The notes beneath the pieces were generated by a model that was given only the letters and a program-made list of their open reading frames with translations, ran no database searches and had not been told where the DNA came from. DNA of 64,000 nt from Salinicola halimionae (GTDB lineage: Bacteria; Pseudomonadota; Gammaproteobacteria; Pseudomonadales; Halomonadaceae): positions 195,554 through 259,553 of the forward strand of contig NZ_PZJQ01000004.1 of the NCBI RefSeq assembly GCF_003206065.1, written 5' to 3'. Shown in pieces: positions 19,653 to 64,000 of this stretch. Position numbers and translations under genes: made by a program. Position 1 is the first letter of the stretch. Every line of letters starts with the position of its first letter.

Positions 19653-19654
19653 GA
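19645..19654. promoter_or_regulatory. Third regulator half-site over the enuR start codon
   Basis: ATTGTCATGA, identical to the two arms of the inverted repeat at 19721-19757, covers the enuR start codon (19650-19652), 76 bases from the nearest arm. Candidate auto-repression site. Confidence 0.5.
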
Positions 19655-19720
19655 TGCAATAAAGCCTTTGACGGCACGCTGAGCGACGATGCTACTATCG
19701 TCGCCGATGCATTGACCGAT

Positions 19721-19757
19721 AATTGTCATGAATACAGTAGTTTAAATCATGACAATT
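19721..19757. promoter_or_regulatory. Inverted-repeat operator between enuR and doeA
   Basis: Perfect arms AATTGTCATGA (19721-19731) and TCATGACAATT (19747-19757) separated by 15 bases, so like faces are about two and a half helical turns apart. It is the only strong dyad in the divergent gap and the natural candidate for EnuR binding. Confidence 0.7.
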
Positions 19758-19848
19758 TCTCACCCGGTCGGCAAGCGGCAGGACATTCGACCCGATCCCC
19801 TCGATGGCCGATGTCTCGATCATTCAGTCCCGTTAGTCGAGTGACGCC

Positions 19849-21048
19849 ATGTTTCAGGTTTCCTTGCCTTTCTCGCGTGAAGAGTACGCCAGCCGTTTGC
19901 ACAAAGTGCGTGTTTCGATGGCGAATCGCGGAATCGATGTTCTCGTCGTCAGCGACCCCTCCAACATGGGTTGGCTGACGGGCTATGACGGTTGGTCGTT
20001 CTACGTGCACCAGTGTGTGCTGGTAGGCCTGGAAGGCGAGCCAGTCTGGTACGGGCGGCGCCAGGATGCCAACGGTGCCTGGCGTACCTGCTGGATGGAC
20101 GCCGAGCGCGTGCGCTACTACCCCGACTACTATGTTCAGAATCCGGACATGCATCCGATGGAGTACCTGGCACAGTCAGTGCTGCCGGAGTATGGCTGGC
20201 ATACCGGCAACGTCGGTCTGGAAATGGACAACTACTACTTCTCGGGCAAGGCTTACGTCAGCCTGCTCAAGGAGCTACCGCATGCTCAGCTGATCGACGC
20301 CACGGCGCTGGTCAACTGGTGCCGGGCGATCAAGTCGCCCCAGGAAATCGCTTACATGCGCACGGCGGCGCGTATCGTCGAGTGCATGCATACGCGGATC
20401 ATCGAGATGATCGAGCCCGGCCTGGCCAAGAGCAAGCTGGTGTCCGAGATCTATCGTGTGGGCACCGAAGGCTGGACCGACGAGCATGGCACCGTATACG
20501 GCGGTGACTATCCGGCCATCGTGCCGCTGCTGCCCACCGGCAGCGATGCCGCCGCGCCCCACCTGACCTGGGACGACACCCCGTTTCGCAAGGGGGAGGG
20601 TACATTCTTCGAGATTGCCGGCTGCTACAAGCGCTATCACGCACCGCTGTCGCGCACCGTCTTCCTGGGAAAACCGCCGCAGGACTTCATCCGGGGGGAA
20701 TCCGCCCTGCTCGAAGGCATCGATAATGGCCTGGCCGTAGCCAAGCCGGGGAATCGCTGCGCCGATATCGCCCTGGCGCTGGGTTCGGCGATGGACAAAT
20801 ACGGCTTCGACCGGGGTGGCGCGCGCTGCGGTTATCCGATCGGGATCAGTTATCCGCCGGACTGGGGCGAGCGCACCATGAGTCTGCGCCCGTCCGACGA
20901 GACCATTCTCGAACCCGGCATGACCTTCCACTTCATGCCCGGTATGTGGATGGACGACTGGGGGCTCGAAATCACCGAGAGCATTCTGATCACCGAAAAC
21001 GGTGCCGAGCCGCTTTGCCACTTCCCTCGCCAGCTGTTCGTCAAATAG
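19849..21048 (+). CDS. doeA: Ectoine hydrolase DoeA (EutD)
   Basis: Opens the ectoine ring by hydrolysis to N-alpha-acetyl-L-2,4-diaminobutyrate, the first catabolic step in the cytoplasm. The protein has the creatinase/prolidase (M24) architecture: an N-terminal domain with DVLVVSDPSNMGWLTGYDGWSFY and a C-terminal pita-bread domain with SRTVFLG, EPGMTFHFMPGMWM and ITESILIT. Length 399 aa matches DoeA. Gene order doeA-doeB-doeX is that of Halomonas elongata. The final codons (LFVK stop) are echoed twice downstream. Confidence 0.93.
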   Translation: MFQVSLPFSREEYASRLHKVRVSMANRGIDVLVVSDPSNMGWLTGYDGWSFYVHQCVLVGLEGEPVWYGRRQDANGAWRTCWMDAERVRYYPDYYVQNPDMHPMEYLAQSVLPEYGWHTGNVGLEMDNYYFSGKAYVSLLKELPHAQLIDATALVNWCRAIKSPQEIAYMRTAARIVECMHTRIIEMIEPGLAKSKLVSEIYRVGTEGWTDEHGTVYGGDYPAIVPLLPTGSDAAAPHLTWDDTPFRKGEGTFFEIAGCYKRYHAPLSRTVFLGKPPQDFIRGESALLEGIDNGLAVAKPGNRCADIALALGSAMDKYGFDRGGARCGYPIGISYPPDWGERTMSLRPSDETILEPGMTFHFMPGMWMDDWGLEITESILITENGAEPLCHFPRQLFVK

Positions 21049-21104
21049 GCCGCGAGCTGTTCGTCAAATAAGACGCGTCAGTTGTTCGTAAGATAAGGTC
21101 GCAT
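21032..21104. repeat. Triplicated 3' end of doeA
   Basis: Three degenerate copies of a 23-25 base block beginning AGCTGTTCGTCAAATA (21032, 21055) or AGTTGTTCGTAAGATA (21080). The first spans the doeA stop codon; the later copies are untranslated and each repeats the LFVK-stop coding pattern. Confidence 0.75.
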
Positions 21105-21200
21105 TGACGGATCGCCCCGGCATTCCTGTTACCTTTCCATGACGCGCCTGTCAGCGATGAGCTTAGGGCGCGTCATCCGTTTCCACTTTGGAGCCTGCGC

Positions 21201-22331
21201 ATGTCTGCATCTCAGCGTCCCAGCCCGATCAGCGCCACCGTCGACTTCGACGCCCAAGGCGTTCAGCACGGTTTTCTCAAGCTGCCGATCTCCATCGACA
21301 CCTCCGCGTGGGGCGCGGTGATGATCCCGATTACCGTGGTCGCCAACGGCGAAGGGCCGACGGCTCTCTTGACCGGCGGCAATCACGGCGACGAGTACGA
21401 AGGCATTACCTCGCTGCTCAAGCTCGCCAGCACGCTCAAGGCAGAAGACGTGCGGGGCCGCGTGATCATCGTGCCGATGATGAACACACCGGCGGCGGAG
21501 GCTGGCAAACGAACCTCGCCGCTGGACGGCGGTAATCTGAACCGCAGCTTTCCCGGCGATCCCAACGGCGGCGTGACCTCGCAGATCGCCGACTATTTCA
21601 CTCGGGTGCTGGTACCGATGTGCGACGTGGCGCTGGATCTGCACTCCGGCGGTCGCACGCTGGACATCGTGCCGTTCGCCGCGGCGCACCGGCTCGACGA
21701 TCTCGCTCAGGAGAGTGCCAGCCTCGCCGGTGCGGTGGCCTTCGGCGCGCCTTACGCGATGATGATGTTCGAGCTCGACGCCACCAAGCTTTACGACACC
21801 GCGGTCGAGTCTCAGGGCAAGACCTTCGTCACTACCGAGCTCGGCGGGGGCGGCACCTCGACGCCACAGAGTCTGGCGCTGACCGAGCGCGGCGTGCGCA
21901 ACTTCCTGGTGCACTATGGTTTGCTGAAAACGGGCTTGGTCGAAGGCGAGTTAGAAAAGCCGACCGAACCCATGATCTACGTCGATATGCCGGATGCCAG
22001 TTGCTACGTCCAGAGCGAGCATTCCGGTCTGCTGGAGTTGACGGTATCGCTGGGGGAAATGGTCGAGCAGGGCGACGTGCTGGCGCGGGTCTACGACATG
22101 AGTCGCACCGGGGCCGAACCGGTCGAATATCGTGCCCAGCGTGATGGAGTGCTGATCGCTCGGCGGTTCCCGGCCAAGGTCGGGATGGGCGATACCATCG
22201 CTGTGGTCGCGGAAGTGGTCGAGTCGCTGGAGCGCGCGCAATCTTTATCGGCCCCGAAGCCGGCCGCAGTTCATTCATCGGCCCCGAAGCCGGCCGAAGC
22301 TCGTTCATCGGCCCCGAAGCTGGTCGAATGA
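21201..22331 (+). CDS. doeB: N-alpha-acetyl-L-2,4-diaminobutyrate deacetylase DoeB (EutE)
   Basis: Zinc deacetylase that releases acetate and L-2,4-diaminobutyrate, second step of ectoine breakdown. It belongs to the succinylglutamate-desuccinylase/aspartoacylase branch of M14: zinc ligands H62 and E65 in GGNHGDEYEG and H148 in LDLHSGG; GNLNRSFPGDP binds substrate. An odd feature is a C-terminal tail of about 27 residues made of ten-residue SAPKPA repeats, beyond the usual family end. The stop overlaps the doeX start (ATGA). Confidence 0.93.
   Translation: MSASQRPSPISATVDFDAQGVQHGFLKLPISIDTSAWGAVMIPITVVANGEGPTALLTGGNHGDEYEGITSLLKLASTLKAEDVRGRVIIVPMMNTPAAEAGKRTSPLDGGNLNRSFPGDPNGGVTSQIADYFTRVLVPMCDVALDLHSGGRTLDIVPFAAAHRLDDLAQESASLAGAVAFGAPYAMMMFELDATKLYDTAVESQGKTFVTTELGGGGTSTPQSLALTERGVRNFLVHYGLLKTGLVEGELEKPTEPMIYVDMPDASCYVQSEHSGLLELTVSLGEMVEQGDVLARVYDMSRTGAEPVEYRAQRDGVLIARRFPAKVGMGDTIAVVAEVVESLERAQSLSAPKPAAVHSSAPKPAEARSSAPKLVE
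22247..22331 (+). repeat. In-frame 30-bp tandem repeats in the doeB tail
   Basis: Units at 22247-22276 and 22277-22306 plus a partial third (22307-22331), each starting ATCGGCCCCGAAGC. They encode SAPKPAAVHS, SAPKPAEARS and SAPKLVE, and stop at the doeB terminator codon. Confidence 0.9.
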
Positions 22332-22801
22332 AGCTTGATCGCTACGACCTCAAGATTCTGGAGATCCTCAGCCGCGACGGCCGGATCACCAAGTCGCGGC
22401 TGGCGGAGGCGATCAGTCTTTCCGTCAGCCCCTGCTGGGAGCGGGTCAAGCGGCTGGAGAAAGCCGGGGTCATCGAAGGCTACAGCGCCCGCATCAATCC
22501 CGACGCCATCGTCAAACGCACGCCGGTATGGGTGCAGATCGAGCTCAAGCAGCACAATGCCGAAAGCTTTCAGCGTTTCGAGAGCGCCATGCGCGATGAG
22601 CCTGTCGTTGCCGAATGCGTCGCGGTCGGCGGCGGCGTGGATTATCTGGTCAAGATCGCTGCCGACAGCATCGACGCCTATCAGCGCCTGATCGATGCCT
22701 GGCTCGTTTCTGATCTCGGCATCGAGCGCTACTTCACTTACATCGTCACCAAGACGGTCAAGCGCGAAGGGCCGCCGTTACTACCTTCAATACCTGACTA
22801 G
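22328..22801 (+). CDS. doeX: Lrp/AsnC-family regulator DoeX
   Basis: A 157-residue leucine-responsive-type regulator: winged helix-turn-helix (LKILEILSRDGRITKSRLAEAISLS) and a C-terminal RAM ligand-binding domain with VAVGGGVDYLVKIAADS. In H. elongata DoeX belongs to the doeABX operon and binds upstream of doeA (recalled family knowledge). The gene is translationally coupled to doeB. Its stop codon TAG overlaps the stop of the opposing VOC gene in a shared CTAG. Confidence 0.9.
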   Translation: MKLDRYDLKILEILSRDGRITKSRLAEAISLSVSPCWERVKRLEKAGVIEGYSARINPDAIVKRTPVWVQIELKQHNAESFQRFESAMRDEPVVAECVAVGGGVDYLVKIAADSIDAYQRLIDAWLVSDLGIERYFTYIVTKTVKREGPPLLPSIPD

Positions 22802-23199
22802 CTCATTAGATGGTGTTTGAGCCTTCCGCAGTCATATGAAGTGATCTCGAAAGGGTTGCCATCCGGGTCCTTAAAGTAGAGAGACCACGATAATTCGTGG
22901 TCTTCGAGTTTCGGTGGTCGTTCCAAATATTTCTCGAGATGCTCTTTCCAAGCAATGAATTCCGCAGCATCGACGCCGAATGCGATCGTGGCGTGCCTGT
23001 CGCTGGCCGGGCGCTCGAAAAGCGAGAGACAAACAGCTCGCTCATCGTCTGCAATCATCAATGGGCCATCCGCAGTGGCCCACTGCTCGAATTCGGTAAG
23101 TCGCTTTAAGCCGAGCGTGTCGGCGTACCACTTTTCGGCGGTCGCTCTGTCGAGAACATGAACGTGTATGTGATCTATCTGCTTGAAGCGCGGTGTCAT
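22798..23199 (-). CDS. VOC (glyoxalase/bleomycin-resistance) family protein
   Basis: A 133-residue vicinal-oxygen-chelate fold protein: KQIDHIHVHVLDRATAEKWY at the start and SLYFKDPDGNPFEITSYD at the end are typical. Possible metal ligands are H10/H12 and the glutamate in PFEIT. The start at 23199 has a GGGAG site seven bases upstream; the longer reading from 23241 lacks support. It is reversed within the doe locus and its base composition is visibly AT-richer than the flanking genes, suggesting later insertion. Substrate unknown. Confidence 0.75.
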   Translation of the reverse strand: MTPRFKQIDHIHVHVLDRATAEKWYADTLGLKRLTEFEQWATADGPLMIADDERAVCLSLFERPASDRHATIAFGVDAAEFIAWKEHLEKYLERPPKLEDHELSWSLYFKDPDGNPFEITSYDCGRLKHHLMS

Positions 23200-23467
23200 C
23201 AGTTTCTCCCAGCTGACTCGCCGTCCAGCATGGAGCGGCAATGTTTGTTCAATCGACTATCCAATAACCAGGCTTTCGATCGCGACGCTCGAATACCAAA
23301 AAAACCGCAACTCCTGAGCGGCCTTTCGAAAGAAAGCGTGCCGCAAAGCGATCGAGACGAAAAGTTTTCTGCCGCCGACTCGATACCATGATCGTACTCG
23401 CAGGATAGGCACTACGTTCTGCTCACCGCCGACAGCCTTTGTTGTCCAGACCCAAGCAGGAGGCGAT

Positions 23468-24931
23468 ATGAAACTCAACGATCCCCGACTTTTTCGGCAG
23501 TACGCCTATATCGATGGCAAATGGACTCACGGCAGCGAGGGCCGCGAAGAGGCGGTCGTCGATCCTGCCACGGGCGAAGTCCTGGGGCATTGCGCGCTGC
23601 TGGAAGCGGCGCAGATCACCGACACGGTGACCGCGGCCGAGAACGCTTTCGCCGAATGGCGGGCGATCAACGTCCATGAGCGCGCCGAAAAGCTATACAC
23701 CTGGTATCGCCTGCTGCACGAGCACAAGGAAGATCTGGCGCTGCTGATGACCTACGAGCAGGGCAAGCCGCTCGACGACTCGCGTGGTGAGGTCGACTAC
23801 GGTGCCAGTTTCATTCAATGGTTCGCCGAGGAGGCCAAGCGCGCCTATGGCATGACCATCCCCAGCCATATTCCCAACGCGGCGCTGGGTACGATCAAGG
23901 AACCGGTCGGCGTTTCGGCGATGTTCACGCCGTGGAACTTTCCGCTGGCGATGATCACCCGCAAGGCAGGGGCGGCACTGGCTGCCGGCTGCACGGTGAT
24001 CGTTAAGCCGGCCAACGAGACGCCTTATTCCGCGCTGGCACTGGCCGAACTGGCCGAGCGGGCCGGTATCCCGGCGGGCGTGTTCAACGTCGTCACCGGC
24101 GATCCGGCGACCGTTTCCGAAGTGCTATGCAACGACAACCGCATCCGCAACATCTCGTTCACCGGCTCGACTCGTGTCGGCAAGCTGCTGATGCGTCAGA
24201 GCTCCTCCAGCGTCAAACGCATGTCGTTGGAGCTGGGCGGTAACGCGCCGTTCATCGTCTGCGACGACATGGACCCGGATGCCGCGGCGAAAGAAGCGGT
24301 CGCCGCCAAGTTCCAGACCGCCGGGCAGGATTGTCTCGCCGCCAACCGCATCTTCGTTCAGCGCGGTATCTACGACGCCTTCATCGAGCGTTTCCTGGTA
24401 CACATGCAGGCGCTCAAGGTCGGCAACGGCCTGGAGGGAAACGATATCGGCCCGCTGATTCACAAGCGCGCGGTCGACATGGCCAAGGGATTCGTCGAGG
24501 ACGGCGTCAGCAAGGGCGCGCGCCAGCTGGGGGGAGAGGACCAGGCGCCCGGCGAGAACTTCTTCATGCCGACGTTGCTGGCGGACATCACGCCGGAGAT
24601 GCGCGTGTTCCGCGAGGAGACCTTTTCTCCGGTCGCCGGTGTCTGTGCGTTCGACGATGACGACGAAGTCCTTAGGCTCGCCAACGACACCGAGTACGGT
24701 CTGGCCGCCTACGTCTATACAAACGACGTGCGGCGTATCTGGAAGCTGATGCGCGGGCTCGAGTACGGCATGGTCAGCGTCAACAGCGTCAAGATGACCG
24801 GCGCGCCGATTCCGTTCGGTGGCGTCAAGCAGTCGGGGCTCGGCCGCGAAGGCGGGGCTGCCGGACTCGATGAATATCTCGACACCAAGTATTACTGTCT
24901 CGGCAATATGCCCTCTGCCAGCAACTCTTAG
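23468..24931 (+). CDS. doeC: Aspartate-semialdehyde dehydrogenase DoeC (ALDH family)
   Basis: Oxidises L-aspartate-4-semialdehyde to aspartate, last step of ectoine breakdown. It is an NAD(P)-dependent aldehyde dehydrogenase close in sequence to succinate-semialdehyde dehydrogenases: N157 in TPWNFP, K180 in VKPANETP, E255 in LELGGNAPF and the nucleophile C289 in GQDCLAANR. Length 487 aa. The DoeC assignment rests on its place directly before doeD; on sequence alone GabD would be possible. AGGAGGC precedes the start. Confidence 0.88.
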
Positions 24932-24992
24932 ATTGATCGATTTTATAGCGGGTATGACACAAGGATCACTCCGATCGCTGCGCCCGCCGCCT

Positions 24993-25025
24993 GAAACGCT
25001 GCCCACAACAGGCGGCGTTTCATTT
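24993..25025 (+). terminator. Hairpin between doeC and doeD (attenuator candidate)
   Basis: GAAACGC (24993-24999) pairs with GCGTTTC (25015-25021), continued by GCC/GGC after one mismatch, and is followed by ATTTT. It ends about 15 bases before the doeD start, so it may be a partial terminator or stabilise the doeC message. Confidence 0.55.
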
Positions 25026-25040
25026 TGGGAAGGAAAGGTT

Positions 25041-26441
25041 ATGACCGATACCCGTACCCTGATCGACAACGATCGCCGCCACGTTTTCCATGCGTCCACT
25101 CATCTGCGCGACTACGCCCACGGCGATGCGCCGGGACGCGTCATCACTGGTGGCAAGGGGATCTCCATCGTCGATCGCGACGGCCGCGAGATGATCGACG
25201 CCTTTGCCGGGCTCTATTGCGTCAACATCGGTTACGGGCGCACCGAAATCGCCGAGGCGATCTATGCCCAGGCCAAGGAACTGGCGTATTACCATACCTA
25301 TGTCGGCCACTCCAACGAGCCGCTGATCGCGCTTTCCGAGCGCATCGCCAAGCTCGCCGGCAATGGTTTGAACAAGGTCTATTACGGACTTTCCGGTAGC
25401 GACGCCAACGAGACCCAGATCAAGTTGGTGCGCTACTACCACAACGTCACCGGACAGCCGAAGAAGAAAAAGATCATCGCGCGTCAGCGCGGCTACCACG
25501 GCTCCAGCATCGCTGCAGGCTCGCTGACCGGCTTGCCCGCGTTCCATCAGCATTTCGACCTTCCCATCGATGGCGTGCTACATACCAAAGCCCCTTACTA
25601 CTATCGCCGGGAACGGGGCGATATGAGCGAGCGGGAGTTCTCCGCCTACTGCGCCGAGCAGCTCGAGGCGCTGATTCAGCGCGAGGGGCCGGAAACCATC
25701 GGCGCCTTCATCGGCGAGCCGGTGCTGGGTACTGGCGGCATCATTCCGCCGCCGGCAGGCTACTGGGACGCGATTCAGGCCGTGCTCAAGCGTCACGATA
25801 TCCTGCTGATCGCCGACGAGGTCGTCAGCGGTTTTGGCCGGCTGGGCAGCGATTTCGGCTTTCAGCACTACGGCATCAAGCCGGATCTGGTCACCATCGC
25901 CAAGGGACTGACCAGCGCGTATCAGCCGCTTTCCGGCGTAATCGTCGGCGAACGGGTGTGGAAGGCGCTGGAAGATGGCACCGGCGAATACGGCCCGATC
26001 GGCCACGGCTGGACCTATTCCGGCCATCCGTTGGGTGCCGCTGCCGCCATGGCCAACCTGGATATCATCGAGCGCGAAAATCTGGTGGGTAACGCTGCCG
26101 AGACCGGTGCCTACTTCAATGCCCAGCTCAAGAAGACCTTCGGCGAGCACCCGCTGGTCGGCGACGTGCGTGGCGAGGGCTTGATGGCCGCGCTGGAATT
26201 CGCGCCAACCAAGGGTGAGTACACGCCGTTCGATCCTTCGCTCAAGGTCGGTGCCCGGGTCGCGGCCGCGGCGATGGAAGAGAACCTGATCGCCCGCGCC
26301 ATGCCTAACGGTGACATTCTCGGCTTTGCGCCGCCGCTGGTGATCGATCGTGGCCAGGTCGATGAAGTGATCGCGCGGGCCAAGCGTGCCATCGACAAGG
26401 TGACCGATGAGCTGACGCGCGAAGGCAAGCTGAGCGGGTAA
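25041..26441 (+). CDS. doeD: L-2,4-diaminobutyrate transaminase DoeD
   Basis: PLP-dependent class III aminotransferase converting L-2,4-diaminobutyrate to aspartate semialdehyde. The motif [13 protein letters not shown] carries D259 and K288 in [15 protein letters not shown] is the Schiff-base lysine; 466 aa. The start at 25041 follows GGAAAGG; upstream in-frame codons overlap doeC in another frame and are rejected. It belongs to the doeC-doeD-eutB-eutC run. The 21 bases spanning its stop are duplicated immediately downstream. Confidence 0.9.
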
Positions 26442-26465
26442 AGAGGCAAGCTACGCAGATAAGCC
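26424..26465 (+). repeat. Duplicated 21-bp stop region of doeD
   Basis: Two units of 21 bases (26424-26444 and 26445-26465). Both begin GGCAAGCT and carry TAA at the same place, so the second copy keeps frame and encodes GKLRR-stop after GKLSG-stop. Confidence 0.7.
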
Positions 26466-26471
26466 ACGTTA

Positions 26472-26527
26472 CGGCGTCTTGATGACGCCGCGAACCTGCG
26501 GCAGGGTGGAGCATTCCATCCTGCCGC
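26472..26527 (+). terminator. Two hairpins between doeD and eutB
   Basis: First stem CGGCGTC (26472-26478) with GACGCCG (26484-26490). Second, very strong, 13 base pairs with a GCAT loop: 26498-26510 against 26515-26527, one G-T pair. No T-run follows, so an RNA processing, stabilising or attenuation role is as likely as termination. The second ends 26 bases before eutB. Confidence 0.5.
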
Positions 26528-26553
26528 GTTCGTCTATCGATCTGGGAGTTTGC

Positions 26554-27540
26554 ATGTCCGACCCTGTCACGCTTCACGACGTCTACCTGGCCCGTCAGCG
26601 CATCGCCGGACAGGCAGCACGTACGCCGCTGTTGCTGTCGCAGAATCTGTCGGCGCGCTTCGATGCCGAAGTCTACCTCAAGCTCGAAACCATGCAGCCG
26701 AGCGGCGCGTTCAAGCTAAGAGGCGCGCTCAACAAGATCGCGTCGCTGTCGCCAGAACAGCTCGAACGTGGCGTGACCACGGCCTCCACAGGCAATCACG
26801 GCCGCGCGGTGGCCTGGGCCGCGAAGCGTCTCGGCGCTCGCGCGATCGTCTGCCTCTCCGAGCTGGTACCGGCCAACAAGGTGGCCGCTATCGAGGCACT
26901 GGGCGCGGAAGCCCGCGTGATCGGTCGTTCTCAGGACGATGCTTTCATCGAGGCGCGGCGTCTCGTCGACGAGGAGGGCATGGCGCTGATCGAACCCTTC
27001 GACGATCCGTTGATTGCGGCGGGGCAAGGCACCATCGGGCTCGAGCTGATGGAAGACGTCCCCGATCTCGACCGTGTGCTGATTGGCCTCTCCGGTGGCG
27101 GTCTGCTCGGCGGGGTCGGCCGCGCGCTCAAGGGCATCAACCCGGGGATCCACGTCTCCGGCGTCAGCATGCAGGAGGGTGCGGCGATGATCGAAAGCCT
27201 GGCCGCTGGCCACCCGGTCGACGTCGAAGAAGAGGCAACCTTTGCCGACTCTCTGGGTGGAGGCATTGGGCTTCACAACCGCTGCACCTTCGAGCTGGTG
27301 CGCGAGGTGATGGACGACCATTACCAGGTGTCGGAAACGGCGATTGCCCGCGCCATGCTGCACTTCTTCGAGCAGGAAAAGATGCTGGTGGAGGGCGCCG
27401 CCGTGGTCGGGCTGGCCGCCATCGACGAGCACACCATCGATATTCGGGGCGAAAAGGTCGCGCTGATCGTCTCGGGTAATGGCGTCGACGCCGCAACCCT
27501 GATGCGTGCTCGCGCCATGCTCGACTATCCAGAGCGCTGA
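26554..27540 (+). CDS. eutB: EutB, threonine dehydratase-like enzyme of hydroxyectoine use
   Basis: PLP-dependent fold-type II enzyme similar to threonine/serine dehydratases: K54 in PSGAFKLRGALN binds PLP, STGNHGRAVAW holds the substrate carboxylate, and GLSGGGLLGG the phosphate. Length 328 aa, catalytic domain only. In ectoine-utilising bacteria eutB and eutC accompany doeA/doeB and are thought to remove the hydroxyl from the 5-hydroxyectoine-derived intermediate. TGGGAG precedes the start. Confidence 0.85.
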   Translation: MSDPVTLHDVYLARQRIAGQAARTPLLLSQNLSARFDAEVYLKLETMQPSGAFKLRGALNKIASLSPEQLERGVTTASTGNHGRAVAWAAKRLGARAIVCLSELVPANKVAAIEALGAEARVIGRSQDDAFIEARRLVDEEGMALIEPFDDPLIAAGQGTIGLELMEDVPDLDRVLIGLSGGGLLGGVGRALKGINPGIHVSGVSMQEGAAMIESLAAGHPVDVEEEATFADSLGGGIGLHNRCTFELVREVMDDHYQVSETAIARAMLHFFEQEKMLVEGAAVVGLAAIDEHTIDIRGEKVALIVSGNGVDAATLMRARAMLDYPER

Positions 27541-27591
27541 TCGCCCGAATGATGCTACGAATTCAAATGAACGGACTCAGGAGCTACCCCG

Positions 27592-28539
27592 GTGGAACTC
27601 TATAACCGACAACAGATTCAGGACGTCGTCAGTCTCGATCACGCTGCTCTCGAAGCCGTCGAGTCAGGCTTTCGTGCGCTGGGCGAAGGCAACGTGGTGC
27701 AGCCGCCGATTCTGTCGATGGCGATCGAGGAGGCCAACGGCGAGGTCGACGTCAAGACCGCCCATATCAAGGGCAACTCGCGATTCGCGATCAAGGTCAG
27801 CCCGGGTTTCTTTGATAACCCGAAATTGGGCCTGCCGAGTCTCAACGGCCTGATGATCGTTTTTTCGGCAAAGACCGGGCTGGTCGAGGCGGTGCTGTTC
27901 GACGAAGGCTATCTCACCGATATTCGCACCGCGCTGGCCGGCGCCATCGCTGCCAAGCATCTCTCGCGTGCGAATAGCCGTCGCGTGACGGTTCTGGGTG
28001 CCGGGCTGCAGGCGGAACTCCAGGTCGCCGCGCTCAAGCTGGTACGCGATATCGACACCCTCGACGTGTGGGCGCGGGACGTTGCCAAAGCCGAGGCCTA
28101 CGCGGCGCGAATGCAGGAAACCTACGGCCTGACCGTAGCGGTCCATACCGATATCGGCGAGGCCTGCCGCGAAGCGGACATCATCGTCACCACCACGCCT
28201 TCGCGGGAACCGTTGCTGAGCGGCGAGCACCTACGCGAGGGCGTTCATGTCACCGCGATGGGCTCGGATAGCCCCGATAAGCGCGAGCTGGATACCTCGG
28301 TGATGGAGCGAGCCGATCACTACGTCGTCGATACCCGGGCGCAGAGCGAGAACAATGGTGAGCTCAAGGCCTACGCCGGCCACGAACCGCCGTTTGCCGT
28401 CAACGAGCTGGGCCGCGTGATCGCCAGCGGCAAGAGCCTGCGTAGCGCGGCTTCCCAGATCACCGTCTGCGACCTCACCGGCACCGGCGTGCAGGACACC
28501 GCGATTGCCGGTTTTGCGCTGGGCCGGCTGATGAAGTGA
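27592..28539 (+). CDS. eutC: EutC, ornithine cyclodeaminase-like enzyme of hydroxyectoine use
   Basis: Member of the ornithine cyclodeaminase/mu-crystallin family: KVSPGFFDN near the N-terminus, GYLTDIRTALAGAIAAKHL, and the dinucleotide-binding VLGAGLQAELQ. 315 aa. The start is GTG at 27592 behind AGGAG. It is the partner of EutB and the last gene of the doeCD-eutBC run. Exact reaction unproven; imine reduction or cyclodeamination of a diaminobutyrate-type intermediate is plausible. Confidence 0.87.
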   Translation: MELYNRQQIQDVVSLDHAALEAVESGFRALGEGNVVQPPILSMAIEEANGEVDVKTAHIKGNSRFAIKVSPGFFDNPKLGLPSLNGLMIVFSAKTGLVEAVLFDEGYLTDIRTALAGAIAAKHLSRANSRRVTVLGAGLQAELQVAALKLVRDIDTLDVWARDVAKAEAYAARMQETYGLTVAVHTDIGEACREADIIVTTTPSREPLLSGEHLREGVHVTAMGSDSPDKRELDTSVMERADHYVVDTRAQSENNGELKAYAGHEPPFAVNELGRVIASGKSLRSAASQITVCDLTGTGVQDTAIAGFALGRLMK

Positions 28540-57299: not shown

Positions 57300-58313
57300 T
57301 CAGATGCTGAGGCCTGTCATCTCGTCCACGCCGAGGTGAACGTTCATGTTTTGTACGGCGGACCCGGCGGCGCCCTTGCCGAGATTGTCGAGCCTCGACA
57401 CCAGACAGACGCGCTCTTCGTTGCCGAACACGAACAGGTCGACGCGATTGGTCTCGTTGGCGCCCTGAACGTCGAAGAAACCGTTGTCCAGGTTATCGAT
57501 ATCCTCGAACGGCCTGACTTGCACGAAAGGCTCTTCGGCGTAATGGGCGCGGTAGGCATTCAGCAAATCCTCCGCCCGAATGCCGGCAGGTAGATGGGAT
57601 AGCTGCAGCGGCACGCTGACCATCAACCCTTTCAGGAAAGGACCGACGATCGGAGAGAACACCGGCGGCCGCGCCAAGCGGCCATGCTGCTGCATCTCCG
57701 GCAGGTGCTTGTGGCCGAGCGACATGGCATAGGGGCGTGGTGCCTGCAGTCTGCTGCTGTCGTCCTCACTCGCCTGATAGTCGGCGATCATTGCCTTGCC
57801 GCCGCCGCTGTAGCCGGTCAGCGAAAAGGCGGATAGCGGGTAGTCCGCCGGCAGCAGTCCCGCGTCCACCAGCGGCCGCACCAGCAGAATGAACGCGCTG
57901 GCATGACAGCCGACATTGGCGATGCGCTTGCTGGCGCGAATCCGGTCGCGCTGGCCCTCATCCAGTTCCGGCAGCCCGTAGACCCAAGCGGGATCGGTAC
58001 GAAACGCCGTACTGGCATCGATCAGACAGGTGTCCGGATTTTCGACCATCGCTGCAGCCTCGCGGGAGGCTGCATCCGGCAGGCACAGGAACGCGACATC
58101 GGCAGCATTCAGCAGTCGTGCGCGCTCGACCGGGTCCTTGCGCTTGTCGCTGTCGATACGCAGCAGTTCGATATCGTCGCGAGCCTGAAGATAATCGAAC
58201 AGGCGCAGGCCGGTGGTGCCTTCCTGGCCGTCGACATACACCTTGAAAGAGCCCTTGTAAGGACGCTTGGAAGAGCCCTCGAAGGTGCGCTGGGATGAGT
58301 CCTGAGATGCCAT
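57300..58313 (-). CDS. argC: N-acetyl-gamma-glutamyl-phosphate reductase (type 2)
   Basis: NADPH-dependent reductase of arginine synthesis. The short-form marks are [16 protein letters not shown] for nucleotide binding and the catalytic C136 in [19 protein letters not shown] and the C-terminal [16 protein letters not shown] complete it. About 23 polar N-terminal residues exceed the family norm and may reflect a later true start, though no internal ATG is suitable. Confidence 0.88.
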
Positions 58314-58375: not shown

Positions 58376-59626
58376 TCAGCTTGTCATGCCGTTGAGCGGT
58401 CTGGCTGCCAGCCGGGATTCGCCCTGGCATTCCTGGGCACAGCGCTCGACTCGCCAACAGGCTTCACGCAGACGCTCGGCGTCCACCGTCAGACTCAGCC
58501 TGATAAAACCCGCTGCGGAAGGACCGAAGGCCTCGCCCGCGAGCACCGAGACCCCATGCTCATCGAGCAGGCGGTCGGCGAAGGCATGGGTGCTGAGTCC
58601 GGTGGCGCGAATATCGATCATCATGAACATGCCCGCGGCGGGTGACAGCGTGGCGATGACCTCGCTGTCGCGCAGGGTTTCGACCACTGCATCGCGGCGC
58701 TGCCGATAAGTCTCGCGCATCTTGGCAATCGCCGTTGGCGGCTCGTCGAAGGCGGCGATCGCGGCGTCCTGAATGAACGGCTGACAGCCGTAGAGCATGC
58801 ACAGGGCGAGATTGACCAGGTGCGCCATCAGCGCCGGCGGGCCGACGACCCAGCCGAGTCGCCAGCCGGTCATGGCGTGGGATTTCGACAGACTACTGAT
58901 CACCACCGTGCGCTCGCGCATGCCCGGCAGGCTGTCGGGGCTTGCGTGCTCACCGTCGAAGATCAGATCGGCGTAGACGGCATCGACGATCAGCCATAGG
59001 TCACGCTCGCGGCAGAGCGTGGCGATCGACTCCCACATGGCCGGTGTCAGGCACTGGCCGGTGGGATTGTGCGGGCTGTTGACCAGAATCGCTCGCGTTC
59101 GAGGGGTGATCGCCGCCTCGATGTCGGCCGCCCGTGGTTGGAAGCCCTCATCGGCGGATAACGGCACCCAGACCGGCACGGCGCCGGTGGACTGCACCAC
59201 GGCTTCGTAGGTGACGTAGGCCGGTTCGGGAATGATTACCTCGTCGCCCGGATCGAGCAGACACTGGGCCGTGGCGTAGAGCCCGCACTGTGCGCCGGCG
59301 AGCACGGCGACGTTATTCGCGTCGGTATCGGCGTGGCCACCGTGACCGCGATGAAAGGCCGCGATGCGCTCACGCAGCGCCGGTTTGCCCTGCACGTCTG
59401 TGTAATGGGTGGCGCCGCTACGCAGACTGGTGACGGCGGCCTCGACGATGGTAGGCGGCGTATCGAAATCGGGATCGCCCACCGACAGGATGATCACGTC
59501 CTCGCCGCGGGCCTGACGGGCCTTGGCGCGGAAGTGGATATTCCAGGCGCTGGCACCCTCACCGGCGATGCGCTGCGTCAGTTGGGCATAGGGGGGAGAA
59601 GTATCGTGTGAATCGGCTGAACGCAT
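58376..59626 (-). CDS. Arginine:pyruvate transaminase-like aminotransferase (AruH-like)
   Basis: Fold-type I aminotransferase of 416 aa. K248 in SLSKSHAMTGWRLGWVVGP binds PLP, and SPHNPTGQ, SVGDPDFDTP and LAGAQCGLYATAQCLLDPGDEV closely recall Pseudomonas AruH, which starts the arginine transaminase pathway. The usual DEVY is DAVY here. Start 59626 gives MRSADSHDTSPPYAQLTQRIAGEG; earlier codons add an unlike leader. argC lies downstream on the same strand (62 bases). Another substrate amino acid is possible. Confidence 0.78.
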   Translation of the reverse strand: MRSADSHDTSPPYAQLTQRIAGEGASAWNIHFRAKARQARGEDVIILSVGDPDFDTPPTIVEAAVTSLRSGATHYTDVQGKPALRERIAAFHRGHGGHADTDANNVAVLAGAQCGLYATAQCLLDPGDEVIIPEPAYVTYEAVVQSTGAVPVWVPLSADEGFQPRAADIEAAITPRTRAILVNSPHNPTGQCLTPAMWESIATLCRERDLWLIVDAVYADLIFDGEHASPDSLPGMRERTVVISSLSKSHAMTGWRLGWVVGPPALMAHLVNLALCMLYGCQPFIQDAAIAAFDEPPTAIAKMRETYRQRRDAVVETLRDSEVIATLSPAAGMFMMIDIRATGLSTHAFADRLLDEHGVSVLAGEAFGPSAAGFIRLSLTVDAERLREACWRVERCAQECQGESRLAARPLNGMTS

Positions 59627-59753
59627 GACAGTCCCGTGGTCGCAAGTCGCGGATTGGAAGCAAGCTGATACGGACAGACTAACGATTACACACCTCGACG
59701 AACAGCCGCCGGACGGCACCAGGGCCGTTCGGCGACCATCTCATCAGAACCGA

Positions 59754-60710
59754 TTACTGCAGACTGGCCGTCACGGCATCGAGTGCCGGTTTGCCGTCGC
59801 GGGTCTTCACGCCGTCTAGGAACTCGGCAACCCGGTCAGGGTGATCCTGCAACCACTGGCGGGCGACATCCTTGGCCGAAAGCTCCTGACGACCGTAACC
59901 GTCGATGAATTCGCTCTGTTCGTCGGCAGTCAGCGTGAACTGCTCGAGCAGCGCGAGCAGGTTGGGATTGGCTGCGGCGAACGCCTTGTTGACGATAGTG
60001 CGCACGTCGCTCTGGCCGTTGTCCGGGCCGTAGACCGACTTCGGATCGTCGAGAATGTGCATGTCGTAAGCCGGAGCCATCCAGTGCGGCGTCCACCCGT
60101 ACCAGACGATCCAGCGCTTGTCGTTGAAGGCCGCGTCGACCTCCGACAGCATGCCCGGCGTCGATGAGTCGAGAATCTGCCAGTCCCCCAAACCGTATAG
60201 ATCCTGGTCCTGGGCATCATGAATGAAAGTGCTGACCGTCGAGCCGGATTCGATCGAGTAGAAGCGACCGCCGAATCGATCGCGCTGTGCATCGAGGTCC
60301 TCGGCGCTGTGGATACCGGCATCGTAGACGTAGCCCGGTACTGCGAAGCCCATTCGGGCACCGGTCACGCTGTTGCCGAGATCCTCGATCTTGCCGCTGG
60401 CCATGGCTTTGTCGTGACTCTCCTGCTGGGCCGGCAGCCAGCCAGCCAGGAACACATCGCTGTCGCCAGTCTGCAGCGTCTGATAGCCGACGGTACTGCT
60501 GACCTCCTGAGTCTCGCTCTCATAGCCGAGCGGTGCGATCAACTGACTGAAGACTTCGGTCTTGACGGTCACGCCGGGCCAGGGCGGCACGACGAAGTTG
60601 ACGCTGTCGGCCTGATCCTGCCGTGGGCTCTGGGCGAAAGCCGATATCGATAAGGTCATCAGCGATAGCGGCAGCAGCGTGGCGGCCACGAGTGCGGTGC
60701 GCAGTGTCAT
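59754..60710 (-). CDS. Glycine betaine/carnitine-type ABC substrate-binding protein
   Basis: Periplasmic binding protein of the ProX/OpuAC cluster, 318 aa, with a signal peptide ending SISAFAQS. Tryptophans likely to form the aromatic cage for a trimethylammonium group occur in VPPWPGVTVK, AGWLPAQ and WYGWTPHWM. No permease or ATPase gene is adjacent, so like Pseudomonas CaiX and CbcX it may serve a core transporter encoded elsewhere. Its neighbours suggest carnitine or gamma-butyrobetaine as ligand. Confidence 0.85.
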   Translation of the reverse strand: MTLRTALVAATLLPLSLMTLSISAFAQSPRQDQADSVNFVVPPWPGVTVKTEVFSQLIAPLGYESETQEVSSTVGYQTLQTGDSDVFLAGWLPAQQESHDKAMASGKIEDLGNSVTGARMGFAVPGYVYDAGIHSAEDLDAQRDRFGGRFYSIESGSTVSTFIHDAQDQDLYGLGDWQILDSSTPGMLSEVDAAFNDKRWIVWYGWTPHWMAPAYDMHILDDPKSVYGPDNGQSDVRTIVNKAFAAANPNLLALLEQFTLTADEQSEFIDGYGRQELSAKDVARQWLQDHPDRVAEFLDGVKTRDGKPALDAVTASLQ

Positions 60711-60766: not shown

Positions 60767-61345
60767 TTAGCCGGTCGAAACGCTGGGCAGCCCCTCGCCT
60801 TCGAACGGCGGGCGTGCCAGAACTCGCTCGAGTAGCGGACGGAAGTGCTCGAGCGGAAGCGTGTCGTAATCGGGGTCGAACGAGGTCTGATCCCATTCGT
60901 CGCAGAAACGAACCGTGCGTTGGTAGCCGGGGTGGCCGCGGTAATCGTCGCGGGCGTGGCGATCCAGATCGTAGAAGTGACGGTAATGATAGCCCTGGAA
61001 CAGCTCGTGATGACGAATCATCCAGACATTCAACGGATCGATGAACGGTTCGAGAATGGCGGCCGCGATCTCGGCATGATTGTCCGGCGCCAGATCGTCG
61101 CCGATATCGTGAAGCAGGGCGCAGACGATGGTTTCGTCATCGGCCCCGGCGCGCTCGGCGCGGGTCGCCGTCTGCAGGCAGTGCGTGTAGCGATCGACCG
61201 GATAGCCGTGTGTATCGCCCTCGAGGCGCAACAGATGCGTGATGACCCGCTCGACGACGCCTTCGCGATAGTCGCGAAAATGGGCGTCGATGACGCGCCA
61301 GTCATCCTCTTGGCTATTGTCGAAACGGGTGAAGTTGGTGCTCAT
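60767..61345 (-). CDS. HD-domain protein, candidate diiron oxygenase or phosphohydrolase
   Basis: A 192-residue HD-fold protein (COG4341-like). Candidate metal ligands are H55, H79-D80 (LLHDIGD), H90 (NHAEIAA), H112/H113 (RHHELFQ) and D152 (EWDQTSFDP), the H-HD-H-H-D pattern used by mixed-valence diiron oxygenases such as MIOX, PhnZ and TmpB as well as by phosphohydrolases. Its start overlaps the stop of the dioxygenase gene (ATGA), so the two are made together; a TmpB-like second oxidation is the working hypothesis. Confidence 0.75.
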   Translation of the reverse strand: MSTNFTRFDNSQEDDWRVIDAHFRDYREGVVERVITHLLRLEGDTHGYPVDRYTHCLQTATRAERAGADDETIVCALLHDIGDDLAPDNHAEIAAAILEPFIDPLNVWMIRHHELFQGYHYRHFYDLDRHARDDYRGHPGYQRTVRFCDEWDQTSFDPDYDTLPLEHFRPLLERVLARPPFEGEGLPSVSTG

Positions 61346-62469
61346 GCGGACTCCAGCTGCGAGAGGGAAGGGGCATCGTGCCGGCGACGCAACGTCAGAC
61401 GCCGGCTGGAAGTCGTGTCGCGGTCGACGTAACCCTGACGCAGATGGCGAACGCCCTGGCTGAGACGGAACGCGGTTCGCCCGTGCAGCAGACGGTAGTT
61501 GTCCATGATCAGCATCTCGCCCGGCGCCAGTTTGGGTGTCAGCGTCATTTCCGGGTCGGTGATCAAGGCGAAGAACGCGCGCCGGGCAGCGTAGTAGTGT
61601 TCCAGCTGCTCGGGCGGGAGCGGCGGGACGCGCTCGGTGCGATTGTTGTAGCGCACGCGGATGACGTCGCCACGGCTATCGAGTTCGATCAGCGGTCCTT
61701 CGCTTTCCAGATGCGTGCTGTCGTCGACGTAGCGGAACCGCGTCGAGATCCGGGTCAGGCAGTCGAACGCGTCGGGATCGTGCCGACGCAGCCGCTCGGC
61801 GGCCATGAAACCGTCGGCCAGCGTGCTGTCGCCGCCGCTATCGGCATTGCTCAGGCAGTGCAGCCAGATATAACCCGGGATCGGATCGCGGTAGGGGTTG
61901 TCGGTGTGCGGCTCGAGCCCGCGCTGGGTCATGGTCAGATCATAGGCATCGGCGATCGACTTGACGTCGGCGATGCCGCCCCAGTTGGTCTGGCGCAGTG
62001 GGCCGAGACGTTCCACCAGCGGCATCATCCCGTCGAGCGTCAACGGCACGCCGCTCACCTTGATGAAACCGTAACGCTCGAGCGATTCGAGCATCGCGGC
62101 CAACGTCCCGTCATCCTCGAGGGCGCGATCGAAATCGGCGCTGGGCAGTTCGGCCAGTGACGCATCCCAGTGTTCGTGGATCACGTCCGACGACGAGAGA
62201 ACAAGGTCGCCCAAGGCAAAATCGGCTTGATGACCATCGCTGAACGCGAGATGGATCCGGTCGCCGCTGCAGCTTGCCTCGAGAAGAGAGAGGTCCAGCG
62301 GCAGCGCCGCGGCCTCGATCAGACGCTGGCCGGTGCGCGGGTCGAGGGTTCCGGCATCCGGCGAGCGCTCGCGCAGCCACAGCGCATGAAGCCGCGTTTC
62401 CCGGTTATCCACGATCACTCTCAGTTGGCGGGCGTGGGTTTCCGGAATGATCTCGACGAAAATGTCCAT
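61342..62469 (-). CDS. Gamma-butyrobetaine hydroxylase-like (TmpA-like) Fe(II)/2OG dioxygenase
   Basis: A 375-residue dioxygenase with an N-terminal GBBH-like domain (about 10-95) and a TauD/TfdA domain. The iron triad is H188 and D190 in LEPHTDNPYRDP and H329 in LLHGRTAF; R331 would hold 2-oxoglutarate. The N-domain lacks the cysteine zinc site of human GBBH. Start 62469 gives MDIFVEIIPETHARQ. It hydroxylates a trimethylammonium substrate by family: gamma-butyrobetaine to carnitine, or a trimethylaminoethyl phosphonate as in TmpA. Confidence 0.8.
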   Translation of the reverse strand: MDIFVEIIPETHARQLRVIVDNRETRLHALWLRERSPDAGTLDPRTGQRLIEAAALPLDLSLLEASCSGDRIHLAFSDGHQADFALGDLVLSSSDVIHEHWDASLAELPSADFDRALEDDGTLAAMLESLERYGFIKVSGVPLTLDGMMPLVERLGPLRQTNWGGIADVKSIADAYDLTMTQRGLEPHTDNPYRDPIPGYIWLHCLSNADSGGDSTLADGFMAAERLRRHDPDAFDCLTRISTRFRYVDDSTHLESEGPLIELDSRGDVIRVRYNNRTERVPPLPPEQLEHYYAARRAFFALITDPEMTLTPKLAPGEMLIMDNYRLLHGRTAFRLSQGVRHLRQGYVDRDTTSSRRLTLRRRHDAPSLSQLESA

Positions 62470-62564: not shown

Positions 62565-63584
62565 ATGACCGATCATTCGACGCCGCAATGGCTCTATCCG
62601 CGCCCCGACCAGCCACCCGTGCTCTCGCCGGACGAAGCGGACATCACGGTCAATCTCTGGCTGCTGCCCAAATTCTCGATGCTGACGCTCTATTGTCTGC
62701 TCGAACCGCTGCGCGTCGCCAATCGATTCGGTCGTTCGCTGTTCGCCTGGCGGTTGTTTTCCAACGACGGTGAAGCGGTGACCGCTAGCAACGGCGTGAC
62801 CGTCGACGTCGACGCTGCACTGGGTGAAACGCCGATCTTCGATAATCTGTTCGTCATCGCTTCCTATGAAGCCGAGGCGACCGTGGCACCGTCGCAGTGG
62901 GCCGTGCTGCGTCGGGTTGCCGCCCACGGCGGGTTGCTCGCGGCGCTGGATACCGGCGCCTTCATCCTGGCGCGAGCCGGATTGATGGAAGGCTACGAGA
63001 CGGCGCTGCACTGGGAAAGCGCCCCCGCGTTCGTCGAGGAGTTTCCGGGGCTTGCGCTGAGCGATGCACGCTACCGCTTCGATCGTCAGCGCCTGACCGG
63101 CGGCGGCGGGGCGGCAAGTCTCGACCTGATGATGGCTTTCATTGAGCGCGAGCACGGCGCCAACCTGGTGACGGCCCTGAGCCGCCAGCTGGTGCATTCC
63201 CGCCTGGATCCACGTATCGACAATGAGGGCGATGTCGATATCGGCTCGGAGTATTGCCCACGCAGCGTGCGGCGGGCGGAAGCGATCATGGAGGGCCATC
63301 TGGCGCAACCGCTGACGATTCCCGACATCTGTCAGCGGATCGGCCAGTCCCAGCGTCAGCTCAATCGGCTCTTTCAGCGTTATCGGGGCGAGACGGCGAA
63401 AGGGCGCTATCTCTCGCTGCGTCTCGACCGCGCCCAGCAGATTCTCGCCGATAGCCGCACCAGTGTGACCCAGGCCGCGCTGGCGGCCGGATTCGGTCAG
63501 CCCGCGCATTTTTCTCGTGTCTATCGTAATCGATTCGGGGAGTCGCCGCGGACGACGGCACAGCGGGGCAAACGACCATCATGA
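62565..63584 (+). CDS. GlxA-family AraC-type activator (CdhR/GbdR-like)
   Basis: A 339-residue regulator: DJ-1/PfpI-like N-domain (about 25-200, including DTGAFILARAGLMEGYETALHW without a catalytic cysteine) and two AraC helix-turn-helices (IPDICQRIGQSQRQLNRLFQRY and VTQAALAAGFGQPAHFSRVYRNRFGESPR). This is the architecture of the glycine betaine and carnitine regulators GbdR and CdhR. Start 62565 follows GGAGAGG. The next gene is a BKACE, as in carnitine clusters. Confidence 0.83.
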   Translation: MTDHSTPQWLYPRPDQPPVLSPDEADITVNLWLLPKFSMLTLYCLLEPLRVANRFGRSLFAWRLFSNDGEAVTASNGVTVDVDAALGETPIFDNLFVIASYEAEATVAPSQWAVLRRVAAHGGLLAALDTGAFILARAGLMEGYETALHWESAPAFVEEFPGLALSDARYRFDRQRLTGGGGAASLDLMMAFIEREHGANLVTALSRQLVHSRLDPRIDNEGDVDIGSEYCPRSVRRAEAIMEGHLAQPLTIPDICQRIGQSQRQLNRLFQRYRGETAKGRYLSLRLDRAQQILADSRTSVTQAALAAGFGQPAHFSRVYRNRFGESPRTTAQRGKRPS

Positions 63585-63743
63585 CAGCGCTTCGGTCGTC
63601 GTCTCAGGTCAATATCATGGCGTTTAATGACAATAGGTGAGTCGATTCGGTGGCCACAATGGATGCATCGCAACGCACCAGCAGGTGCGCTCAACCATTG
63701 CCCCGCGCTGCCAAGGTTCGGGGTCGGACCGAGAGGCTCTTTC

Positions 63744-64000
63744 ATGAATCGCGACGTTATCCTGACCTGTGCCGTTACCGGTGCTGGCGACACGGCCGGC
63801 AAGCACCCGGATCTCCCGATCACGCCCAAGCAGATCGCCGACAGCGCGCTGGATGCCGCCCGCGCTGGCGCCAGCATCGTCCACCTTCACGTTCGCGATC
63901 CGGAAACCGGCGGTATCAGCCATTCGACGGATCACTTCCGTGAAGTCGTCGAGCGCATCCGCGAGTCCGATGTCGATGCAGTGATCAACATCACCGCCGG
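63744..64000 (+). CDS. Beta-keto acid cleavage enzyme (BKACE, DUF849), 5' part
   Basis: The first 85 codons of a BKACE TIM barrel, cut by the right edge. [28 protein letters not shown] and the zinc-binding [13 protein letters not shown] are family marks (two histidines in HLH). In Pseudomonas carnitine loci the homologue converts dehydrocarnitine plus acetyl-CoA to betainyl-CoA and acetoacetate; the position behind a CdhR-like gene supports that role here. GAGAGG lies 11 bases before the start. Confidence 0.83.

Follow-up and report, generated by a model that had tools for sequence, protein, structure and literature searches.

The 64,000-nucleotide stretch of the Salinicola halimionae genome analysed here (the window; contig NZ_PZJQ01000004.1, positions 195,554 to 259,553 of the forward strand) carries on its minus strand a gene for an Fe(II)/2-oxoglutarate (2OG) dioxygenase resembling TmpA and GBBH (hereafter OX) and a gene for an HD-domain protein (hereafter HD), coupled through an ATGA at 61345-61342 (minus-strand reading) in which the HD start at 61345 lies within the OX stop codon. 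A preliminary description of the window had singled out this pair and its setting of an orphan betaine-type binding protein, a CdhR-like regulator and a BKACE gene; both open reading frames, their overlap and all three neighbours are as it described them (Table 1), and no permease or ATPase gene was found adjoining that of the binding protein (OpuAC). The same gene order and four-base overlap recur in all nine named Halomonadaceae loci compared (L033-L041; start codons picked by rule), and the overlap is therefore not due to chance. Analysis of the pair suggests, with somewhat less than even confidence, that OX and HD form a two-step oxidative chain-shortening module, which would convert a trimethylammonium compound derived from trimethyllysine (TML) to gamma-butyrobetaine (GBB) and so provide the substrate of the GBBH-like enzyme encoded nearby.

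Table 1. Genes of the OX-HD locus, in window coordinates
Feature	Position	Strand	Basis or remark
OX, TmpA/GBBH-like Fe(II)/2OG dioxygenase, 375 amino acids	61342-62469	minus	Pfam and NCBIfam models
HD protein, 192 amino acids, predicted mixed-valent diiron oxygenase	60767-61345	minus	ligand alignment, predicted fold
OpuAC substrate-binding protein, choline/betaine type	59754-60710	minus	choline-binding model 259 bits, below cut-off
Class I aminotransferase (open reading frame open to 59719)	58376-59629	minus	
ArgC-like reductase	57300-58313	minus	argC_other 460 bits, above cut-off
AraC-family regulator, GbdR/CdhR-like, divergent from OX	62565-63584	plus	best model GbdR 225 bits, below cut-off
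BKACE gene start, continues past window end	63717-63998	plus	
GBBH-like gene beyond the window	66258-67520 (window-equivalent)		about 4 kb from the OX-HD pair

HD is the only Pfam domain recognised in the HD protein. The H-HD-H-H-D ligand set noted in the preliminary description is present (H55, H79, D80, H90, H113 and D152), and none of its six residues varies across 48 aligned sequences; R52, D83 and Q117 are likewise fixed. D152 was chosen as a ligand because the first Asp of the FCDEWD motif varies. TmpB and PhnZ are the sole matches at E 0.001 or better when the PDB is searched with the HD sequence alone, and a profile of the 48 sequences finds the same two proteins at about 1e-10, the following match being at 0.09. 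The AlphaFold model of HD is confident (mean pLDDT, the predicted local distance difference test, 93.6), and ranks 1-10 of a Foldseek search with it are taken by TmpB and PhnZ. Structural alignment by VIA-align places PhnZ (Z 18.4, root-mean-square deviation (rmsd) 2.5, 153 residues aligned), TmpB (Z 17.4, rmsd 2.9, 154 aligned) and MIOX (Z 12.2, rmsd 3.1, 138 aligned, 18% identity) ahead of a tRNA-processing enzyme in the next row (Z 8.9, rmsd 4.5, 130 aligned), the absence of other folds from this list being no evidence against them. Ligands and model thus support a predicted oxygenase-type rather than hydrolase-type HD protein, and the grouping with phosphohydrolases that the preliminary description had named as telling against its proposal did not occur. 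It is highly improbable that the HD protein hydrolyses phosphate esters or is inactive, with the chemistry performed by OX alone: the Pfam label, one public plasmid record that names an HD relative a phosphohydrolase, and the 70 of 80 HD loci in which no OX-like gene was found speak for such a role, but the best folds are three known HD oxygenases followed by a gap in Z, the six ligands do not vary, and OX and HD share one set of 19 genomes out of 58.

The substrate-binding features of the phosphonate enzymes are absent from HD. In PhnZ, the ligands are His34, His58, Asp59, His80, His104 and Asp161, Tyr24 and Glu27 form a YxxE loop, and His62 contacts the substrate hydroxyl (PMC7916636, PMC8177086). 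The window HD has T-H-G-Y where YxxE is expected, and YxxE is found in none of the 27 members of its clade and in both of two control proteins. In an alignment of 29 HD proteins, the clade has HDxGD in place of HDxGH (HDIGD in the window, versus HDIGH), and so is without His62; it also lacks the AKRYL segment and has an acidic or other residue at the position of PhnZ Arg158, with loss of the R-x-x-D motif. The controls (L185 and L186), which are encoded beside TmpA-like genes, keep YxxE, HDIGH, AKRYL and the Arg, and a long branch with support of 100/99 separates them from the 27 other rows of the HD tree. Scores against curated models agree with this separation, HD reaching 42.2 bits with the TmpB model (cut-off 300) and 44 against the other TmpB/PhnZ cut-off of 214.6. 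MIOX has Lys directly after HDxG, where HD has Asp; its chains, of 241-258 residues, are longer than the 192 residues of HD, and no polyol context accompanies HD. MIOX is an HD diiron oxygenase that cleaves a C-C bond, as is predicted for HD. Both also lack the YxxE loop, as far as the accessible part of PMC8177086 describes MIOX.

OX combines a TauD domain with a GBBH-like N-terminus in Pfam, and its best PDB match is 6npb. It scores 422.3 bits with the TmpA model NF049936 (cut-off 400), 256 bits with the GBBH model (cut-off 414.75; a weak test, as the GBBH-like neighbour falls below the same cut-off with 306 bits) and 164 bits with the TMLD model (cut-off 268.3). The designation of OX as GBBH-like in the preliminary description needs correcting, as by sequence OX is nearer to TmpA (422 vs 256 bits). 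The cut-off of NF049936 is loose: it passes a second such protein at L177 (403.2 bits) and narrowly misses a third at L184 (398.1 bits), and the genuine TmpA/TmpB pair at L186 reaches 540 and 346 bits with the TmpA and TmpB models. Since window-type OX proteins pass this model (422 and 403 bits) without TmpB partners, genomes may be wrongly credited with phosphonate use.

Active-site residues distinguish two types of OX. In human BBOX (hBBOX) numbering, the 15 rows of the window type, which come from the same genus, from elsewhere in the Halomonadaceae and from three genomes further afield, have W177, A181, D191, M194, N293 and R294; the 10 rows of a sister type, which adjoin HD directly in eight cases and lie about 3 kb from it in L179 and L180, have F177, F181, D191, Y194, P293 and R294. 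TmpA and the TmpA-like proteins of L185 and L186 have Y177, F181, N191, Y194 and R294, and the GBBH-like neighbours have F177, F181, S191 and Y194. The phosphonate of the TmpA substrate is bound by N187 (hBBOX 191), N287 and R288 (PMC9296572); Asp replaces Asn187 in 25/25 OX rows, the Asn287 position is Asn in 15/15 window-type and Pro in 10/10 sister-type rows, and the Arg is kept in all 25. BBOX has a cage of Phe184, Phe188 and Tyr201 (PMC4736438). The residue of TMLH homologous to BBOX Asn191 is Asp231, which is thought to bind the alpha-ammonium group of trimethyllysine (PMC7764450); when TMLH positions are placed by this equivalence, OX has the Asp231 equivalent, with W, A and M at the cage positions Tyr217, Trp221 and Tyr234. 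In a tree of 33 rows, the window and sister types are each supported at 100/99 and joined at 98/97, outside the TmpA group, in which TmpA joins L185 and L186 at 83/92, which is not strong; hBBOX and L189 are long branches of unsure placement.

Tandems of a hydroxylase with an HD oxygenase are known from PhnY/PhnZ and TmpA/TmpB (review PMC10574752), and by analogy OX and HD would work in the same manner without carrying the full diagnostic residue set of TmpA, TmpB, GBBH or TMLH. TmpA/TmpB of Leisingera caerulea, which converts 2-trimethylaminoethylphosphonate to glycine betaine, likewise pairs a GBBH-like 2OG dioxygenase with an HD diiron oxygenase of the same folds in a two-gene operon and a quaternary-amine setting (the TmpA of PMC12506109 is another TmpA), but the context of OX-HD is carnitine rather than phosphonate. 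The likeness to TmpA/TmpB drawn in the preliminary description thus extends to fold and general logic and stops at the marker residues of the phosphonate enzymes. PhnY/PhnZ and GmPhnY/GmPhnZ1 share the logic of a hydroxylase with an HD mixed-valent diiron oxygenase, and PhnZ is the best structural match of HD, but OX probably belongs to a hydroxylase family different from PhnY and HD is without the PhnZ substrate residues. Residues, trees and control proteins rule out a straight TmpA/TmpB identity. A divergent version, in which OX would hydroxylate 2-trimethylaminoethylphosphonate or a similar compound and HD would cleave its C-P bond, releasing phosphate and glycine betaine, is very unlikely: it would account for the TmpA score and the 6npb match of OX, for the Arg and one Asn of the phosphonate site kept in the window type and for a regulator of GbdR type, but both proteins branch outside the phosphonate enzymes, Asn187 is replaced throughout both OX clades, HD has lost all four features of the controls, both models give far higher scores to the genuine pair of L186, and no phosphonate transport or C-P gene appeared among the window proteins scanned, no further search having been made.

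The distribution of the pair ties it to the GBBH-like gene. Among 58 related genomes, with thresholds placed at the wide gap of each score list (HD at least 306 bits, next genome 223; OX at least 482 bits, next 222; GBBH E 1e-70 or better), OX, HD and the neighbouring GBBH-like gene occur in an identical set of 19 (G000-G003, G006-G008, G010, G011, G015, G017, G018, G022, G024, G027-G030, G035), in two of which (G018 and G022) OX and GBBH lie on different contigs; weaker GBBH-like paralogues are present in most members of the genus. Carnitine dehydrogenase is found at 480 bits or more in 28 genomes (33 at E 1e-40), and one protein of its family scores above the cut-off of the curated L-carnitine dehydrogenase model (437 vs 414 bits). 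The 28 are the 19 and nine others (G004, G005, G009, G012, G013, G014, G016, G026, G031) in which OX, HD and GBBH are all absent at the set thresholds; the pair therefore tracks GBBH and not carnitine breakdown as such. Four pair-less loci of the same genus (L216-L219) all keep BKACE, carnitine dehydrogenase, thioesterase and one AraC gene, and all lack OX, HD, OpuAC and GBBH; because the missing genes flank the kept block on both sides in paired genomes, their loss would not be explained by a single deletion. By Fisher tests the association has values of 1e-15 for the 58 genomes and 1.4e-7 for the 28, but the genomes are related; when the shared label is mapped on a tree of carnitine dehydrogenases from 29 genomes it takes seven changes, of which at least four are forced by supported branches. 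Pairing is conserved in relatives, so that the other finding named in the preliminary description as telling against its proposal did not occur either. The link that it drew to carnitine or GBB holds for the cluster, which beyond the window goes on with genes for carnitine dehydrogenase, thioesterase, a second GBBH-like protein and a second AraC regulator. As substrates of the pair, both compounds are disfavoured: GBB is the probable product because a separate GBBH-like enzyme is encoded about 4 kb away in the same 19 genomes, and carnitine is an unlikely substrate because, among the 28 genomes that encode a close carnitine dehydrogenase, nine have none of OX, HD and GBBH. That neighbour has the F-F-Y cage given for BBOX (PMC4736438), as described for psBBOX, the GBBH of Pseudomonas sp. 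AK1, whereas OX, of the same fold family, has W-A-M and the Asp; neighbourhood, cage and family mark the neighbour as a putative GBBH.

Loci in relatives indicate which other genes accompany the pair. The composition-based gene caller skipped some genes (HD in L033 and L126; the aminotransferase in L177 and L178), and presence and absence were rechecked by tblastn. Near the pair in the nine named loci, OpuAC is found in 9/9, a thiamin diphosphate-dependent decarboxylase downstream of HD in 8/9 (not L036), the class I aminotransferase and a lysine/arginine-type binding protein each in 8/9 (not L040), GBBH in 8/9 (not L033; one cut by the stretch end), a betaine-aldehyde-type dehydrogenase in 6/9 and a class II aldolase in 5/9. 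The decarboxylase belongs to the 5-guanidino-2-oxopentanoate decarboxylase subfamily (NF005712, 766 bits, cut-off 500), and its start is called four bases inside the HD gene, within the HD stop, in L034, L035, L037, L038 and L040; the aldehyde dehydrogenase is nearest to betaine-aldehyde dehydrogenase (445 bits, below cut-off). OpuAC has kept three Trp that align with those of ChoX chain 2reg, residues that presumably take part in substrate binding. In another family of the class, G212 and G322 carry a run of aminotransferase (54-56%), decarboxylase (49%) and HD genes, opposite which lies window-type OX on the other strand, and the G212 stretch also holds transporter genes; in G417 a single stretch encodes OX, decarboxylase, aminotransferase, BKACE and carnitine dehydrogenase, with 728 bits for the decarboxylase. 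In G714, from another class of the same phylum, genes for BKACE, carnitine dehydrogenase, thioesterase and AraC run divergently from window-type OX. In L128 the core of OX, HD and OpuAC is accompanied by neither aminotransferase nor decarboxylase, and in L036, L129 and loci of the same genus the decarboxylase is missing. The decarboxylase was rejected as an essential partner, there being none close in the window genome and none in the stretches read around the pair in L031, L036, L123, L124, L125, L128 and L129. A strict tie of the aminotransferase to the pair was weakened by its absence from the pair stretches of L040, L125 and L128 and its presence beside carnitine genes in two of the four pair-less loci (L217 and L219).

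The chain-shortening proposal can be set out on this basis in two forms, both ending in GBB. What the analysis establishes is the gene pairing, the diiron ligands, the oxygenase-like fold, the missing phosphonate-site residues and the tie to the GBBH-like gene; substrate, cleaved bond and product follow by inference. In the first, delta-valerobetaine (5-trimethylaminopentanoate) would be imported through the betaine-type binding protein or, in relatives, could be formed from TML by the aminotransferase, the cationic 2-oxo-acid decarboxylase and the aldehyde dehydrogenase; OX would hydroxylate it beside the carboxylate (C2), HD would use O2 at its diiron site to cleave the C1-C2 bond, yielding GBB and CO2, and GBBH, carnitine dehydrogenase and BKACE would lead from GBB through carnitine to glycine betaine. 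Such an alpha-hydroxy acid might bind the two irons as a chelator, much as citrate may do in PhnZ, judging from the title of entry 4n6w. In the second, OX would hydroxylate C3 of TML and HD would cut the C2-C3 bond. Delta-valerobetaine is preferred because the conserved core consists of the betaine-type binding protein, OX and HD, and because the accessory genes would yield exactly this compound from trimethyllysine; taken by itself the delta-valerobetaine route is still doubtful, and the TML variant, which accounts better for the Asp of OX and leaves the decarboxylase less well used, is improbable. Delta-valerobetaine is reportedly made by gut bacteria by another route, DavB/DavA, and is hydroxylated by mammalian BBOX at C3 (PMC11773067), so attack by OX at C2 would be a different outcome. 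The eukaryotic carnitine pathway resembles the proposal in that TMLH is of the same dioxygenase family and the route ends in GBB, but the OX cage is partly replaced relative to TMLH, and in the accessible text of PMC7764450 the eukaryotic steps after hydroxylation are assigned to an aldolase and a dehydrogenase rather than to an HD oxygenase.

Two other substrate classes have to be weighed against this proposal. It is distinctly unlikely that the substrate is some other quaternary amine, for example beta-alanine betaine converted to glycine betaine, with shared regulation or habitat explaining the link to GBBH. A sister-type pair and an HD relative do occur beside other amine genes (a choline-type binding protein, choline dehydrogenase and aldehyde dehydrogenase in L134; a GBBH-like gene, an MTTB methyltransferase and an FAD/GcvT-type dehydrogenase in L189), and the cage of sister-type OX is F-F-Y, as reported for Pseudomonas sp. 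AK1 GBBH, but the window type tracks GBBH exactly in the 58 genomes, including the two with separate contigs, and its cage is unlike those of short-substrate enzymes. A guanidino substrate arising from an arginine transaminase route, with incidental carnitine neighbours, is hardly credible: the three Trp kept in a betaine-type binding protein, the position of OX beside BKACE and carnitine dehydrogenase in distant genomes and the kinship of the aldehyde dehydrogenase with betaine-aldehyde dehydrogenase all argue against it, set against the name of the decarboxylase model, the lysine/arginine type of the transporter and a dimethylargininase-like gene near the L177 cluster (236 bits, cut-off 340).

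Several observations weigh against the conversion of delta-valerobetaine or TML to GBB. The Asp at the TmpA Asn187 position would fit an alpha-amino group, as in the TML hydroxylase, better than a lone carboxylate, and OX retains only part of an aromatic cage (W, A and M, versus Y, F and Y in TmpA). No close decarboxylase is encoded in the window genome (30% identity at best), and delta-valerobetaine would therefore need to be imported. The neighbouring GBBH-like protein lies below the GBBH cut-off, and in G258 GBBH occurs although window-type OX does not. HD and OX of G714 are on separate contigs, and G417 has window-type OX but, of the HD types, only the sister type was found there. The four supported independent switches on the carnitine-dehydrogenase tree are too few for a sign test to reach significance among related genomes. 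Most HD loci also stand apart from OX: a tblastn search around all 80 (E 1e-8) found an OX- or GBBH-like stretch in 10, comprising nine Halomonadaceae loci and one metagenome locus, and the HD family therefore has other roles too.

With rather less confidence than an even chance would warrant, HD may represent a new subclass of HD diiron oxygenases that cleaves a C-C bond of a hydroxylated quaternary-ammonium compound in concert with a dedicated TmpA-like hydroxylase, giving aerobic bacteria a route from TML or delta-valerobetaine to GBB and carnitine that replaces the eukaryotic aldolase and aldehyde dehydrogenase. The literature that could be searched, mostly non-subscription, held no description of the OX-HD pair or of this HD family in a carnitine setting, which is weak evidence, as subscription papers were largely outside it, and agrees with the suggestion of the preliminary description that such a two-step oxidation had not been described in this context. 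In the accessible part of one review, the substrates of HD oxygenases are inositol and hydroxy-phosphonates (PMC8177086); a carnitine-linked member, if real, would widen this small enzyme class. Delta-valerobetaine is a gut-derived metabolite that has been called an obesogen (PMC11773067), and the pair would, if the proposal is right, be a bacterial answer to the aerobic degradation of this compound and of trimethyllysine.

HD relatives that stand alone have neighbours of their own. In Pseudomonas loci they follow a small Mpo1-like gene, a neighbour cluster found in 23/80 loci (for example L045 9500-9892; PF06127, 2-hydroxy-palmitic acid dioxygenase Mpo1-like, 138 bits), which possibly hints at a wider role of HD proteins. 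A class II aldolase/adducin gene adjoins HD relatives of several lineages (L047, L048, L069, L076, L083, L094, L100 and others; 21/80 loci). In L042 and L070 the HD relative adjoins a PhyH-type 2OG oxygenase and a class II aldolase, with BKACE nearby, which is another combination of a hydroxylase with an HD protein.

Among loci with dioxygenases of this kind, L134 4866-10823, on Pseudomonas aeruginosa plasmid pF045_1, has a sister-type OX-HD pair and, after it, the choline-type binding protein, the choline dehydrogenase and the aldehyde dehydrogenase. The first of these three exceeds its model cut-off with 458 bits, and the second its subfamily cut-off with 756 bits. In L189 7385-19155, HD and the GBBH-like gene occur with the MTTB methyltransferase (PF06253, 764 bits) and the FAD/GcvT-type dehydrogenase. 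The window genome encodes on contig 7 (L254 4787-7186) a third GBBH-like paralogue, which has human BBOX-like Asn residues and adjoins another OpuAC gene.

Within the window itself, a scan found no tRNA and no Rfam match at the gathering threshold. The ArgC-like reductase gene adjoins carnitine genes in all four pair-less members of the genus that were read. Elsewhere in the window, 18246-28539 contains an ectoine breakdown cluster, of which the genes named here were scanned: DoeA hydrolase (654 bits) and DoeB deacetylase (477 bits) are both above their cut-offs, a cyclodeaminase is above the PRK08291 cut-off, and a GntR/MocR-type regulator is encoded upstream.

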